The notes under the pieces: model-generated
Seen by the model: only the letters and a program-made list of their open reading frames with translations
What the model was told of the DNA's origin: nothing
The model's database searches: none
Source: Terriglobia bacterium
GTDB lineage: Bacteria; Acidobacteriota; Terriglobia; Terriglobales; Acidobacteriaceae
Direction: 5' to 3'
DNA: 64,000 nt
Assembly (NCBI GenBank): GCA_020072815.1
Contig: JAIQGE010000003.1
Location: 186,001 to 250,000, forward strand
Part shown: piece after piece, positions 24,312 to 29,601 of the stretch
How the letters are laid out: each line of letters starts with the position of its first letter
How positions within the stretch are numbered: position 1 is the stretch's first letter
Made by a program: the position numbers and the translations under genes

Positions 24312-25400
24312 TCAACCGATGGCCGCCCTTCTCAGTTCGCGGGACGCGAAGTCATCAATCACTTTGGCGGCGGGGCGGGCGCCGCGGCGAATCACCTGTT
24401 GGGAAAATCGCTCCATTTCTTCAAGTTGCGGGCTGAATTGCAGTAGCAGCAGGTCCACGCCGGCTTCTTCAAATTCAGCAATTCGCTCAGACACCTGCTC
24501 CGGAGTGCCGACCAGCCCGGACCTGAGCCCGCGATTTGATACGGAATAGTCTTCGAGCGAAACGCGCTGCTCCAGTTGGGTGTTGGCCAGCCATTGCTGG
24601 TAGTTGCCGTAGCCGGCGGCGTTCTGCTTCACGTCAGTAATGCGGCGCAGCTCCTGCTGGGCTTCTTCTTCGCTGTCGCGGACGATGGCGTAGGCGGCCA
24701 CGCCGAACTGCATGCGTGGCAGGCCATGTTTTTCGCGGCGGGCGGAGAGATCGCGGATTTTTTCGCGAATTTTCTCCGGCGGGTCGCCGTGCATGACGTA
24801 TGCGTCGCACTTCTGGGCAATCAGGTTCTTGGCGGCTTCCGATTCGCCGCCGGCGTAGATCACGGGACGCGGTCGCGAGACCGGCTTGGGCTGCAGGACG
24901 AGATCGTCCACGCGGTAGTACTTGCCGTGGTAGCTGAAGTGGTCCTGCTTCCACGATTGATCAACCACGTCAAGCCACTCGGAAGTGCGGGCATAGCGGT
25001 CATCGTGCTGGTCAAATTGCACGCCGTATTTGCGGGCTTCTTCCGCCCACCAGGAAGAAACAACGTTGAGGGAGAGGCGGCCGTTGCTGATGTGATCAAT
25101 GTTGGCGGCCTGCTTGGCCAGCAACGCAGGGTTGTGGAAGGTGGGCCGGACGGCGACCATCAGCTCAAGGCGATGGGTGACGGCGGCCAGAGCGGCAGCG
25201 GTGGACCAGGCGTCAAGCGAGGGCTCTTCCGGGCCTTTGATGTCATTGAGATTGAGTTCGGCGATGAGTGTGAGATCAAAACCGATTTCTTCACTGCGGC
25301 GGGCGAGGCGGCTGATGTACGGCCAAGTGGCCTGCATGTTTTCATCTTCAACGTTGCGCAGCCAGCCGCCGAAAACAGGGAGCCAATATCCGTAGCGCAT
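24312..25400 (-). CDS. LLM-class flavin-dependent monooxygenase (SfnG/SsuD-like)
   Basis: A 362-residue luciferase-like FMN-dependent oxidoreductase. It resembles dimethylsulfone/alkanesulfonate monooxygenases across its length: LARRSEEIGFDLTLIAE, RLELMVAVRPTFHNPALLAK, IDHISNGRLSLNVVSSWW, HDDRYARTSEWLDVV and FSYHGKYYRVDDL. This group uses reduced FMN and oxygen, often to free sulfur from sulfones or sulfonates. No flavin reductase or transporter is adjacent. Its ATG overlaps the ATP-grasp stop codon by one base (TAATG), so the two are translated together. The operon is preceded by a Met/Cys-rich leader ORF, which fits a sulfur theme, though the substrate is unknown. Confidence 0.85.
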   Translation of the reverse strand: MRYGYWLPVFGGWLRNVEDENMQATWPYISRLARRSEEIGFDLTLIAELNLNDIKGPEEPSLDAWSTAAALAAVTHRLELMVAVRPTFHNPALLAKQAANIDHISNGRLSLNVVSSWWAEEARKYGVQFDQHDDRYARTSEWLDVVDQSWKQDHFSYHGKYYRVDDLVLQPKPVSRPRPVIYAGGESEAAKNLIAQKCDAYVMHGDPPEKIREKIRDLSARREKHGLPRMQFGVAAYAIVRDSEEEAQQELRRITDVKQNAAGYGNYQQWLANTQLEQRVSLEDYSVSNRGLRSGLVGTPEQVSERIAEFEEAGVDLLLLQFSPQLEEMERFSQQVIRRGARPAAKVIDDFASRELRRAAIG

Positions 25401-26383
25401 TATGCAGCCTCCCTTGCTTCGAATTCGAGGAAGTCCACGAGGCGGACAAAGGGGTCAAAGCCCACGACGCGGGGGCCGTCGGCGACGAAGTTGGAGAGGG
25501 CGTTGACGTCGTAGAAGTAGAGCTGGCCGTCGCGGTCGTCAATGATGTACTCGACGCCGCCGACTTCGATGTTGGATTCGCGCATGATGCGCTCCACGCC
25601 ACGGATGGCTGCGTCCGGCGGAGTGTAGCCTTCCACTTTCAGGCCGCTCTTGGGGGCGTCCACGGGGCAAGCGGCGCGGTTCAGTTCCTGGCCGCCGGTG
25701 GTGCGGCAGATGTCCGCCGGGCAGAGGTCAAAGGTCTCGCCGGTGAGATGGACTTTGATGCCGTAGAGAAACTTGCAATCAACAACTTCAACGCGGACGA
25801 TGTGCCCGCCGCGCGCCGGGATAAATTCCTGGACAAGGGCCGTGGTGTCGAGGCCGAGGTCGAGGGCCGCTGGGCTGGCAGGATCGGCGTGGACGGATTC
25901 TTCCAGGTGCTCACGCGTTTGGAACTTCTTGACGCCAGCGCCGCTGCCGCCGATGTTGGGCTTGACGACGATGGGGAAGCGCAGACCGTCGGCGGCTTCC
26001 AGAGCGTCGGCCGGGGAGTTGATGACGCGCGTCTTGGGATAAGGAAGCCCGAGCGATTCCAGCAACGAGAGCTGAAGGGCCTTGGAGGTCTCGTAACGAA
26101 AAGCCTTCTGGCCGTTCACCACGCGCTTGCCGCGCTGCTCCAGATGCGCGAGATAGTACAGCGTGTAGAAGATGCCCTGGCCGTGGCCGCGGCGATAAGC
26201 AGAGGGGCTCATGCGGTTGAAGATCAGCGAGTAGTTGCCTTCGCCGTTGAGCTGCGCAGGGTCAAAGTGATGCTGAGCGGCGTTGACGCGGATGAAGGGC
26301 GTCCCGCGGCGTTCCAGTTCAGCAAACAGCGGCTTGAACCAGTGCGGATGTTCGTAGTAAATCGCGATAGGTTGTTTGGACAT
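25400..26383 (-). CDS. ATP-grasp ligase (RimK/LysX-like), function unknown
   Basis: A 327-residue ATP-grasp protein. The N-terminal ~90 residues are a pre-ATP-grasp domain (IAIYYEHPHWFKPLFAELER). The ATP-binding part shows FPIVVKPNIGGSGAG (lysine and glycine-rich loop), ALVQEFIPARGGHIVRVEVV, and VGGVEYIIDDRDGQLYFYDV followed by NALSNFV, which holds the usual metal ligands. Such enzymes join a carboxylate to an amine or thiol. ATG 26383 has a strong GAGGAAAG ribosome site; ATG 26410 does not. The gene lies downstream of a small Met/Cys-rich ORF and a terminator hairpin, and is coupled to the SfnG-like monooxygenase. Its substrate could be a small metabolite or the small peptide; neither is demonstrated. 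Confidence 0.83.
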   Translation of the reverse strand: MSKQPIAIYYEHPHWFKPLFAELERRGTPFIRVNAAQHHFDPAQLNGEGNYSLIFNRMSPSAYRRGHGQGIFYTLYYLAHLEQRGKRVVNGQKAFRYETSKALQLSLLESLGLPYPKTRVINSPADALEAADGLRFPIVVKPNIGGSGAGVKKFQTREHLEESVHADPASPAALDLGLDTTALVQEFIPARGGHIVRVEVVDCKFLYGIKVHLTGETFDLCPADICRTTGGQELNRAACPVDAPKSGLKVEGYTPPDAAIRGVERIMRESNIEVGGVEYIIDDRDGQLYFYDVNALSNFVADGPRVVGFDPFVRLVDFLEFEAREAA

Positions 26384-26427: not shown

Positions 26428-26458
26428 AAAAGAAGAAGGCCGCTCAGCTTGAGCGGCC
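26428..26458 (-). terminator. Terminator/attenuator hairpin between the leader ORF and the ATP-grasp gene
   Basis: On the minus strand GGCCGCTCA (26458-26450), a 3-base loop and TGAGCGGCC (26446-26438) form a perfect 9-bp stem followed by TTCTTCTTTT. It lies 35 bases after the leader stop codon and 44 bases before the ATP-grasp start, the usual place for a transcription attenuator. Confidence 0.75.
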
Positions 26459-26493
26459 CCTGACTTTCGAAATCTCGTGAAACTTAGAAAAGA

Positions 26494-26589
26494 TTACGCG
26501 TCACCGGTCGCTCGCCCCATACAACAACACATGCACATGGCCATAGCCATGTTGGAGGCGGACGCCGGGTTGGCGCAGTAAGACTGCAT
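26494..26589 (-). CDS. Met/Cys-rich 31-residue leader peptide (or peptide precursor)
   Basis: This small ORF has 31 codons plus TAA. Residues 14-24 read MAMAMCMCCCM: five Met and four Cys in eleven codons; a further Cys is residue 5. The ORF ends ...RATGDA. It starts about 7-10 bases after the predicted transcription start, with no Shine-Dalgarno, so it would be translated leaderless or nearly so. A terminator hairpin follows, then the ATP-grasp/SfnG-like operon. Clustered codons for the two sulfur amino acids before a terminator and a sulfur-type monooxygenase fit a leader peptide that senses charged tRNA-Cys/tRNA-Met. A Cys-rich precursor of a modified peptide, with ATP-grasp and flavin enzymes as maturases, is the main alternative. 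Expression is not proven. Confidence 0.6.
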   Translation of the reverse strand: MQSYCANPASASNMAMAMCMCCCMGRATGDA

Positions 26590-26602
26590 ATTGAATCAGT
26601 AG

Positions 26603-26631
26603 ATTTAAACAGATGCGGGGGCGGGAGTCAA
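26603..26631 (-). promoter_or_regulatory. Predicted promoter of the leader/ATP-grasp/monooxygenase operon
   Basis: On the minus strand -35 TTGACT (26631-26626, five of six) and -10 TTAAAT (26608-26603, four of six) are exactly 17 bases apart. Transcription would begin near 26596, only a few bases before the leader ATG at 26589. Confidence 0.6.
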
Positions 26632-26728: not shown

Positions 26729-26757
26729 TTGACGTTAAGTCCTTCCTGATGTATAAT
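26729..26757 (+). promoter_or_regulatory. Strong predicted sigma-70-type promoter for the aminopeptidase gene
   Basis: -35 TTGACG (26729-26734) and a perfect -10 TATAAT (26752-26757) are 17 bases apart. The transcript would start near 26764 and carry about 210 untranslated bases before the ATG at 26977. Confidence 0.7.
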
Positions 26758-26826: not shown

Positions 26827-26896
26827 GGGACCAGGGGATGACTCCGGGGATGTTTGGAGCTAAGTCCTTATTTTTCGGGGATGAACGGGGAGGGGG
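26827..26896 (+). repeat. G-rich repeat module, copy 1 (G-quadruplex-like)
   Basis: The unit CGGGGATG recurs here, and the end reads GGGGATGAACGGGGAGGGGG (26877-26896) followed by TGG. The same core, GGGGATGAACGGGGAGGGG, preceded by a TAAGTC...ATTTT spacer, recurs at about 61.47-61.52 kb. It lies in the predicted 5' leader of the aminopeptidase mRNA. Confidence 0.6.
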
Positions 26897-26976
26897 TGGC
26901 CGCGGAGCGGCCACATCGCCGGGATCGCCGACATCGCAACGCGATCGCCGGAATCGGAAAACAGGACAGGGGTTTG

Positions 26977-29601
26977 ATGCGAGAGATGACGAGAACTGCC
27001 AAGACTGCCAGGATTGGGAGCCTGTTCCTCATCCTGTTCACGGGCTGGGCTGCCAAGGCTGTTGGTGCTCCGGACGGGATTCCCCGAGAATTGGCGCGGC
27101 AGCGGGCGCAGCAGGTTTCTGATGTTCGCTACCGGCTGAGCTACACGCTTGTCCCGAAGGCGGCGTCGGTCAGCGGACATGAGGAGCTGCGGTTCGTCCA
27201 GAATGCGGACGCACGCGGTATCCTGCCGGAGTTGCTCGACTTCCGCGAAGGGGCCATCAGCAGCCTGACCGTGAACGGGCAAGCGGCGCCGGCGGCGATG
27301 GAGAATGGACACGTCGAGCTGCCGGCCAAGCTGCTTAAGCTGGGCGAAAACGTGGTGGAGATTGATTTCACCGCACCGGTAGCGCCGGCAGGGAAGGCCT
27401 TCACGCGTTTCGAAGACAAGGACGACGGCAGCGAATACATCTACACGCTGTTTGTGCCCATGGATGCCGAGATGGCGTTTCCGTGCTTTGACCAGCCGGA
27501 CATGAAGGCCAAGTTCACGCTGACGGTGACCGCGCCCGAAGAGTGGATTGTGATTTCCAATGGAGCGGTGCAAAGAACTAATGCCGGAGTTGGTGAGCGA
27601 TTGCGTCGGACAGAATTTGCCGAAACCAAGCCCATCAGCACATATCTGTTTGCGTTTGCCGCAGGACCGTTCCAGAAAGTCCACGAAGTTCCGGGAATGC
27701 CGGGGCTGTACGTCCGCAAGTCGAAGCTGGACAAAGCGGAGGCGGAAGCCCACGCGGTCCAGCAGATTACCTCAGACGGCATGAGGTATCTTTCGGAATA
27801 TTTCCAGCAGCCGTTTCCGTTTCCCAAATATGACATGGTGTTGCTGCCCGGCTTCGCCTACGGCGGTATGGAACATGCCGGGGCAACGTTTCTGCGGGAA
27901 GAATCCATCCTGTTTCGCACCTCGCCAACGCACAGCGACCGCTTGAACCGCGACATCCTGCTGCTGCACGAACTGACGCACCAGTGGTTCGGCGACCTGG
28001 TGACCATGCGCTGGTTTGACGATCTTTGGCTGAAAGAAGGTTTTGCGCAGTATATGGCGTACCAGACGCTGGCGTCGCTGAAGCCGACCGACAACATCTG
28101 GAAGCGGTTCTATCAGGCGATCAAGCCGGCGGCGTATGGGATTGATTCCACGCCGGGGACCACGCCGATTTACCAGGAGATCGCTAACCTGAAGGACGCC
28201 AAGTCGGCCTACGGCGCGATTGTCTATTCCAAAGCGCCGGGCGTGCTCAAGCAACTGGCGTTTGTGCTGGGGGAAAACAAGTTTCGCGATGGTTTGCGGC
28301 TCTATCTGAAAGAGCACGCCTACGCCAACGCTGAGTGGAGCGACCTGGTAGGAGCGTTGGAAAAAGTTTCCGGCAAGAAGCTGGGAGACTGGGCGAACGC
28401 GTACATCCGCCGGCGCGGCATGCCGCAGGTGGATGTGGAATGGAAGTGCGATCCGAAGAAAGGCGTGACCCGCGTGTTTCTCACGCAGCATGACGCGTTG
28501 AATGAAGGCGGAACATGGCCCATAGCAACGCAGGTGCTGCTTAACTATGGCGCCGCGGAGTCGGTCGTCCGTGCTGACTGGCAACGCGGGAAGACAGAGT
28601 TCGAGCAGGCCGGCGCAGTTTGTCCGCAGTGGATCTTCGCCAACGACCGAGACCACGCTTACGGCCGCTTTCTGCTGGACGCGAAAAGCCGCAAAGCAGT
28701 GACGGAGCAGATGAGCGGGATTACTGATGTGTTTGAGCGTACGCTGCTGTGGGGATCGTTGTGGGACTCAGTGCGCGAGGCGGAGATGGATCCACAGGAA
28801 TACGTTGAGCTGGCGCTGAGGTCGCTTCCCGCGGAAAAAGACGAAGCACTAGCGCAGAGCATGATCGGCCGGACAATCTTTGCGCTGCACAAGTATCTCA
28901 GCGATGATGCGCGCGCGCTGATTGTACCGAAGGCAGAAGCCCTGGCGTACGACCAGATGCTGCATGCGCCGCAGAAAGACATGAGGATTGTCTGGTTCCG
29001 CGCGCTGCGTGCCGTCGCTGAGACGCCGCAGGGGCGGGATTGGATCAAGCAGATCCTCGCGGGGAAGCTGGAGGTGCCGGGAGTGGAAGTGCGTCCGCTG
29101 GACCGCTGGCAGATGGTGACCGGGCTGGTGGCGCTGAATGATCCTGAGTCGGAAGCGTTGCTGGTGGCGGAAGAGAAGCGCGACCCGTCGGGTGAAGGAA
29201 GAAAGTATGCATTCGTCGCGGCGGCGGCGCGTCCGGATGGAAAGTCGAAAAAGGAGTTCTTCGATGGCTACCTGCATGACGCAGCGCGCCCGGAAGACTG
29301 GGTGGAGCAGAGCCTGGGGGCGTTCAACTGGTGGAACCAATCGTCACTGACTTTGCCATTTCTCAAGCCCGCGCTGGAGGCCTTGCCGCAGGTGAAGAAG
29401 GAGCGAAAGATCTTCTTCGTTCTGGCGTGGCTGAACGCGTTCATTGGCGGGCAGCAATCAGCCGAAGCACAGACGCAAGTCCAGGAATTCCTGCAGTCGG
29501 CCAGCCTGGATAAAGACTTGAAGCTCAAGGTCTTGGAAGTATTTGACGATTTAAACCGTACGGTGCGAATTCGCGCCAAATACCAAAAGAAGGCGGGTTG
29601 A
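26977..29601 (+). CDS. M1-family zinc aminopeptidase, exported
   Basis: An 874-residue gluzincin aminopeptidase. The zinc site is complete: HELTHQWFGD with His331, Glu332 and His335, and Glu354 in LWLKEGFAQY (HExxH-x18-E). The substrate-recognition loop is GGMEHAGA (296-303), a variant of the GAMEN motif. A C-terminal ERAP1_C-like helical domain follows (from ~560). ATG 26977 gives a signal peptide, MREMTRTAKTARIGSLFLIL. The open frame reaches back to 26854 through repeat DNA, which is not coding. The first codons overlap a degenerate ACTGCCAAGACTGCCAGGATT repeat. It would trim N-terminal residues from peptides in the periplasm or outside. Confidence 0.92.
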   Translation: MREMTRTAKTARIGSLFLILFTGWAAKAVGAPDGIPRELARQRAQQVSDVRYRLSYTLVPKAASVSGHEELRFVQNADARGILPELLDFREGAISSLTVNGQAAPAAMENGHVELPAKLLKLGENVVEIDFTAPVAPAGKAFTRFEDKDDGSEYIYTLFVPMDAEMAFPCFDQPDMKAKFTLTVTAPEEWIVISNGAVQRTNAGVGERLRRTEFAETKPISTYLFAFAAGPFQKVHEVPGMPGLYVRKSKLDKAEAEAHAVQQITSDGMRYLSEYFQQPFPFPKYDMVLLPGFAYGGMEHAGATFLREESILFRTSPTHSDRLNRDILLLHELTHQWFGDLVTMRWFDDLWLKEGFAQYMAYQTLASLKPTDNIWKRFYQAIKPAAYGIDSTPGTTPIYQEIANLKDAKSAYGAIVYSKAPGVLKQLAFVLGENKFRDGLRLYLKEHAYANAEWSDLVGALEKVSGKKLGDWANAYIRRRGMPQVDVEWKCDPKKGVTRVFLTQHDALNEGGTWPIATQVLLNYGAAESVVRADWQRGKTEFEQAGAVCPQWIFANDRDHAYGRFLLDAKSRKAVTEQMSGITDVFERTLLWGSLWDSVREAEMDPQEYVELALRSLPAEKDEALAQSMIGRTIFALHKYLSDDARALIVPKAEALAYDQMLHAPQKDMRIVWFRALRAVAETPQGRDWIKQILAGKLEVPGVEVRPLDRWQMVTGLVALNDPESEALLVAEEKRDPSGEGRKYAFVAAAARPDGKSKKEFFDGYLHDAARPEDWVEQSLGAFNWWNQSSLTLPFLKPALEALPQVKKERKIFFVLAWLNAFIGGQQSAEAQTQVQEFLQSASLDKDLKLKVLEVFDDLNRTVRIRAKYQKKAG

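Follow-up and report, generated by a model that had tools for sequence, protein, structure and literature searches.

A Candidate Cysteine-Responsive Attenuator in the Leader of an ATP-Grasp/Flavin Monooxygenase Operon of Acidobacteriota

In a 64-kb stretch of DNA from a soil acidobacterium (the window, hereafter), a short leader on the minus strand, upstream of genes for an ATP-grasp protein and an LLM-class flavin monooxygenase, most probably acts as a transcription attenuator that is mediated by the ribosome, responds to cysteine, and relies on an intrinsic terminator (a probability of about 0.84 in our estimate). The leader has three features expected of an attenuator, namely a Cys-rich ORF, a terminator before the first gene, and a predicted antiterminator that would exclude the terminator by sharing one of its arms, although the antiterminator pairing of the window taken alone is not significant. 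In related sequences the ORF, its control codons, the predicted alternative pairings, and the terminator are conserved, and from these we infer the stalling of the ribosome and the direction of the response. The leader is a concrete candidate attenuator for Acidobacteriota that can be tested by reporter. It would place an uncharacterised ATP-grasp/flavin monooxygenase unit, spread over several phyla, in a likely sulfur-starvation response, and it offers a setting in which to ask whether methionine codons ever act as the control codons of an attenuator.

A Met/Cys Leader ORF and an Intrinsic Terminator Precede the Operon

An earlier, sequence-only reading of this DNA had described a promoter, a short Met/Cys-rich ORF, and a terminator ahead of the ATP-grasp gene, and these elements are present in the sequence exactly as described, positions included. 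The −35 box TTGACT (26626–26631, minus strand) is separated by a 17-nt spacer from a −10-like TTAAAT (26603–26608, minus strand), and TTGAC recurs 40–44 nt upstream of the leader start in all nine loci of the genus. The pair is unlisted in our promoter scan, which demands an A at position 2 of the −10 element, missing here. Transcription is expected to start near 26597, which would make the leader ORF near-leaderless. This ORF (26494–26589, minus strand, ATG at 26589) has 31 codons, MQSYCANPASASNMAMAMCMCCCMGRATGDA, and its codons 14–24 (26518–26550, minus strand), which read MAMAMCMCCCM with contiguous Cys codons, are the putative control codons. Counterparts of the ORF and of its Met/Cys run are found in 9/9 genus loci.

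Four segments on the minus strand could form alternative hairpins. R1 (26552–26577), upstream of the control codons, is able to pair with R2 as a protector hairpin. R2, GAGCGACC (26506–26513), lies within the ORF and is the candidate 5′ arm of the antiterminator. R3, GGCCGCTC (26451–26458), is common to antiterminator and terminator, and R4, GAGCGGCC (26438–26445), is the 3′ arm of the terminator. The terminator hairpin (26436–26460, minus strand) has 11 pairs with G-U allowed, contains the perfect 9-bp stem GGCCGCTCA/TGAGCGGCC that had been reported, and is followed by a T-rich tail to about 26427. It folds with −19.3 kcal/mol (z = −3.5), although such hairpins are not rarer in shuffled sequence, where 2.2 are expected over the 2-kb region against the one found.

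The ORF is unusual for its composition. When the upstream 450 nt were shuffled with dinucleotides preserved, an ORF with at least four Cys and at least four Met in 11 codons arose in 0/3,000 shuffles, and at least four Cys alone was reached in 25/3,000. No second ORF of 8–60 codons passes the Met/Cys criterion in the 64-kb window, and no Rfam family matches above its gathering score between 26000 and 27000, where two sub-threshold matches were returned.

According to the proposed mechanism, transcription would start a few bases upstream of the ORF, and the leader would read the supply of charged tRNA-Cys. When cysteine is plentiful, the ribosome would cross the Met/Cys codons, and R2 would be covered by it or captured by R1; with R2 occupied, R3 would pair with R4, and transcription would stop before the ATP-grasp/LLM operon. 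When charged tRNA-Cys is scarce, the ribosome would stall in the stretch of Cys codons that separates R1 from R2 and keep R1:R2 from forming, whereupon the free R2 would pair with R3 as it is made, no terminator would form, and the operon would be transcribed.

The Leader Is Conserved in the Genus, the Peptide Tail Less So

The ATP-grasp orthologue is present in all eight other genomes of the genus that were compared, at 81%–89% identity. In all nine genus loci, the window included, the TTGAC box is followed after 40–44 nt by a short Met/Cys ORF (33–39 codons in the eight relatives), a GAGCGGCC-like R2, and, upstream of the ATP-grasp gene, a terminator with the arms GGCCGCTC and GAGCGGCC. Each leader has 3–5 Met and 4–6 Cys in 12 codons, and the runs are alike in composition more than in order (MAMAMCMCCCM, MAMAMCCCMC, MAMCCCMCMC, MAMCMCCCIC, CCCMAMCMCLC, and MVMAMCMCCMC). 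After the run, inside each ORF, stands GAGCGGCC or a variant of it with one or two changed bases, complementary to the terminator 5′ arm GGCCGCTC. In the comparison of related genomes that had been suggested as a check, both the Met/Cys codons and the hairpin are kept in 9/9 genomes. The window's peptide tail is frame-shifted by a one-base offset (GRATGDA versus RERPVLSNFS in relatives such as L004), and seven of the eight R2 bases are kept despite this shift. ATGTGYATGTGY occurs at 25 places in the nine genomes, leaders included.

Alternative Pairings of R2

The window had been said to pair at seven of eight positions between 26513–26506 and 26458–26451, and this is correct, the one mismatch being an A opposite a C. 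In the eight other genus loci all eight positions of R2:R3 are paired, G-U included, so that over the genus these pairs form in 98.6% of cells (71/72, the sole failure being the window), compared with 29%–51% in a slid-partner control; terminator pairs form in 100% of cells. In 9/9 loci the R2..R3 fold exceeds the 8-bp terminator core in stability. The window has the weakest such fold of all nine (−18.8), slightly below its full terminator hairpin (−19.3); its longest exact complement to the terminator arm is five bases, and its antiterminator taken alone is no better than shuffles (fold z = −0.85, duplex p = 0.10). Among 18 usable loci of 19 (L093 had no usable terminator string), 11 have an R2:R3 pairing better than that of their shuffles (p < 0.05); the seven others are the window, L097 (p = 0.77), L037, L038, L039, L042, and L077. 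The argument for the antiterminator is carried by the relatives of the window. Covariation within the genus neither favors nor disfavors the attenuator model: the pairs hardly vary, none has a two-sided change, and shuffles score equally.

The distance from the ribosomal A site to R2 is 9–48 nt across the control codons, and a ribosome usually covers some 12–13 nt downstream of its A site. Because of these distances, a ribosome stalled at any Cys codon but the last would leave R2 free. It had also been proposed that a ribosome at the stop codon covers R2. This fits the window, where the stop codon lies 17 nt past the start of R2, but not its relatives, in 8/8 of which the distance is 27 nt. 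A broader model, in which a finished or absent ribosome would let the upstream R1 capture R2, is weakly suggested by the sequences. R1 segment core pairs form in 91.7% of cells, and R1:R2 reaches p < 0.05 in one of nine loci (p = 0.066 in the window; combined p = 0.003 over what are related loci).

Cys-Run Leaders Occur beyond the Genus

We counted Cys-cluster ORFs, with at least four Cys in 10 codons and at most 450 nt upstream of the gene. In a first sample of homologues, 80 of 317 relatives were kept, six loci (L031–L036) being, judged by length, the same contigs as six of the genus loci, and 80 of 81 loci were counted, L063 being omitted for having only 4 nt upstream. Such an ORF precedes 24/80 homologous operons versus 8/423 other genes of the same contigs (p = 1e-14), and 17/73 once the genus is removed (p = 5e-10). 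The terminator is found in 18/19 non-Bacteroidota loci with a leader versus 3/54 loci without one. A second sample comprised 80 upstream stretches from 115 matches in 113 genomes of the class. Here 13/80 have a Cys-cluster ORF, and the terminator is found in 13/13 of these and in 9/67 without such an ORF, two of the nine standing behind leaders with three Cys. The criteria for a terminator differ slightly among these three sets of counts, and the two samples share two loci (L212 = L042 and L215 = L083). Most ATP-grasp homologues have no Cys-cluster ORF (56/80 in the first sample and 67/80 in the second).

We tabulated 32 leaders from several families, leaving aside L093, L097, L277, and the Bacteroidota. 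A terminator is present in 31 of them (none was found for L110), and an exact complement of at least six bases to its 5′ arm follows the Cys run in 22/31, inside the ORF in 21 of these; in 9/31 the complement is just 4–5 bases. The codon phase of R2, taken in the GAGCGG register, is 0 in 13 leaders (the eight genus relatives, L037–L039, L047, and L077), 2 in ten leaders of other families (L042, L211, L214, L245, L247, L248, L254, L256, L258, and L274), and 1 in the window. Since the complement is kept inside the ORF in differing codon phases, it is the RNA that is conserved and not the peptide tail. In L089 and L103, furthermore, a different terminator arm, GGCCCGGAAGGC, is matched downstream of the Cys codons by GCCTCCGG, which is complementary to it but for one missing base (p = 0.02 and 0.01), both partners having changed together, in what may be one event.

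The pattern GAGCGG..GGCCGCTC..GAGCGGCC is found in 12/399 genomes of the class versus five genomes with a reversed control. ATP-grasp leaders account for four of the 12, and a Cys-run leader is lacking in the remaining eight, so that by itself the pattern lacks specificity; the R2 mismatch keeps it from matching the window.

The Operon and Its Link to Sulfur

The first gene (25400–26383, minus strand, ATG at 26383–26381, with GAGGAAAG ahead of the start) encodes a RimK-like ATP-grasp protein. The second (24312–25400, minus strand) encodes an LLM-class flavin monooxygenase. With crude ORF calling, an LLM-cluster gene is found next to the ATP-grasp place in 60/81 loci and an ATP-grasp-cluster gene in 52/81. 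The enzyme had been called SfnG-like. It is indeed related to SfnG and alkanesulfonate monooxygenases, its nearest solved structures being 3rao (putative luciferase-like monooxygenase), 8vw6 (alkanesulfonate monooxygenase), and 8t0u (dimethylsulfone monooxygenase). It scores 268.2 bits against TIGR04021, the equivalog model of SfnG dimethylsulfone monooxygenase, which is below the cut-off of 382.95, so that SfnG function is not established. The operon probably has a role in obtaining sulfur from organic compounds.

A link to sulfur comes from Bacteroidota, where the homologous operon follows a SAM-I riboswitch and then a Cys-run ORF in 7/9 loci (L058 is without a riboswitch). In seven Bacteroidota genomes we found 27 SAM-I riboswitches, 19 of which have, 5–11 nt behind them, an ORF with a Cys run (at least three Cys in four codons) at or close to its end, an arrangement that looks like composite control by SAM and cysteine. 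Seven of eight SAM-I riboswitches that have no Cys-run ORF stand ahead of what we take, from a motif, to be methionine synthase. Eight proteins downstream of riboswitches were scanned: two phosphoadenylyl-sulfate reductases and two proteins of the O-acetylhomoserine sulfhydrylase family scored above cut-off, one sulfhydrylase-like and two sulfite/nitrite-reductase-like proteins scored below it, and one was unmatched. The 19 riboswitch-linked ORFs (L165, L166, L168–L171, L173, L174, L176, L178, L179, L181–L184, L186, and L188–L190; around position 1600 on the riboswitch strand) are of 31–48 codons, come from Pontibacter, Nafulsella, and Salinimicrobium, and in some cases stand ahead of sulfur assimilation genes.

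Within the genus, two of five sulfate-assimilation (cys) operons from three genomes have a Cys-run ORF of their own followed by a terminator, and L204, in the window's genome, has none; Cys-cluster ORFs also occur inside coding regions of these stretches. The terminators of the two operons concerned, L205 (G004:C62) and L208 (G001:C152), are of a different sequence. As a separate observation, the PAPS reductase family PF01507 has no match in three of the nine genus genomes (G005, G002, and G007, one of them 99% complete) and a match below cut-off in G003; the genomes without it may depend on organic or reduced sulfur.

Do the Methionine Codons Contribute?

The sequence-only reading had the leader respond to cysteine and also to methionine. 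The cysteine part is strongly backed by the comparison, whereas the methionine part is suggested by the conservation of Met codons only. If the Met codons were read too, a lack of cysteine or of methionine would each switch the operon on; this would extend the cysteine attenuator, and we regard it as possible but doubtful. It would account for the 3–5 Met kept in the run in every genus leader, where Met makes up 35/65 of the non-Cys residues versus 34/163 in 23 other leaders (ties in the choice of counting window favor Met). Ten of those 23, however, have at most one Met in the run, and four have none; methionine shortage would presumably hinder initiation as well; and several of the predicted folds show the ATGGCCATG block as an RNA hairpin, which could itself account for the block.

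The distribution of SAM riboswitches bears on the same question. With the best 99 candidates per genome scored, SAM-I was found in 0/9 genus genomes versus 10/16 other relatives, and the Bacteroidota place it ahead of the same operon. Tentatively, and with the same modest probability, the interleaved Met/Cys codons might be a two-input sensor that stands in for the riboswitch and Cys-run ORF of Bacteroidota; if so, two phyla would have handled the same pair of signals in different ways, one with codons and nothing else, the other with a riboswitch and codons together. The Bacteroidota leaders of the ATP-grasp/LLM operon have Cys runs without Met, and Met adjoins the Cys run in several Bacteroidota leaders of other sulfur genes (e.g., L169, L173, L182, L183, and L190). 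One of the two genus cys-operon leaders has two Met at its run, and the other has none in the run. Among the best first-pass candidates, SAM-IV was found in 0/9 genus genomes, with one control matched; SAM-II gave no match among such candidates, in the control genomes either, and is uninformative. A search for S-box pieces by regular expression gave many weak matches and was set aside.

Other Explanations

Three further accounts are, in our judgment, weaker than the cysteine attenuator. The product of the leader might be a peptide, rich in Met and Cys, with a function of its own (as a RiPP precursor or in binding metal) that the two enzymes modify, with the terminator setting only the ratio of precursor to enzyme. 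ATP-grasp and flavin enzymes do occur in peptide maturation, the ATP-grasp protein weakly matches a ribosomal-peptide maturase model (30.1 bits against a cut-off of 350), and the N-terminal half of the leader is partly conserved in the genus. We nevertheless consider such a product very unlikely, as the leaders share little across lineages except Cys and often Met, residue order is permuted even within the genus, the sequence behind the run is R2 translated in one frame or another, the tail of the window is frame-shifted, and Cys-run ORFs also stand ahead of two genus cys operons.

Met/Cys motifs generally bind Cu(I), and the run could, as a nascent chain in the ribosome, arrest translation on binding copper, another metal, or an oxidant. 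Translational copper sensing by a nascent protein has been reported (PMC9973294). Neither gene of the operon, however, resembles a metal gene, the order and spacing of Met and Cys vary, and the Cys runs of Bacteroidota sit at the end of their ORFs, next to a SAM riboswitch, all of which makes a sensor of this kind less likely still. Least likely is a constitutive weak terminator beside a chance ORF, with no regulation, for although intergenic terminators are common and the window's R2:R3 is imperfect, the shuffles did not yield such an ORF, the arrangement is kept in all nine genus loci, and ORF and terminator occur together in the second sample.

Relation to Known Attenuators

The attenuators of the trp, his, and thr operons combine control codons with segments that pair as R1:R2, R2:R3, and R3:R4. 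The window leader would follow the same four-segment logic with control codons; unlike in these operons, its control codons stand between R1 and R2, R2 lies in the reading frame in varying codon phase, and the 5′ leader before the ORF would be very short.

Leaderless poly-Cys attenuators are known from mycobacteria (Canestrari, 2020, as related in passages of PMC9031893 and PMC9094748 and cited in PMC13236596), and Cys-run leader peptides had been predicted earlier (Seliverstov, 2005), in a study that reported no conserved terminator hairpins for them (PMC1262725). As in those systems, a short ORF with contiguous Cys codons precedes a sulfur-linked operon in the window; the ORF would be near-leaderless if transcription starts where predicted, and the speed of the ribosome on Cys codons would be the signal. 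It differs in its conserved intrinsic terminator with a matching antiterminator, in phylum and genes, and in having Met interleaved with Cys. The uORFC-8-2 motif, described in passages of PMC8632094 as exclusively upstream of cysS in Rhodobacterales, with ribosome-mediated attenuation proposed, likewise combines a terminator with Cys codons in a leader ORF; it has two tandem Cys, whereas here 4–6 Cys and Met precede an ATP-grasp/LLM operon and R2 lies within the ORF. In contrast to the SAM-I riboswitch (RF00162) that, with a Cys-run ORF behind it, precedes the homologous Bacteroidota operon in 7/9 loci and was found in 0/9 genus genomes, the reading of the window element would fall to a ribosome and not to a bound metabolite.

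A search of the open-access literature found, among the titles, openings of abstracts, and passages covered (the passages from PMC1262725, PMC8632094, PMC2965389, PMC13236596, PMC9031893, PMC9094748, and PMC3766115), no description of a cysteine attenuator in Acidobacteriota, of attenuation by Met codons, or of a poly-Cys ORF coupled to a SAM riboswitch.

Other Observations

A scan of the window's genome for tandem TGY codons gave 112 matches and was uninformative. Dense tandem codons of the TGY type were seen at G000:C4:97149–97943, with 40 matches in 0.8 kb, probably in a repeat-rich gene. On the plus strand of the window, a near-consensus promoter TTGACG-17-TATAAT (11/12; 26729–26757) points toward a divergent ORF of 915 codons (26854–29601), which from a motif we take to resemble an aminopeptidase.
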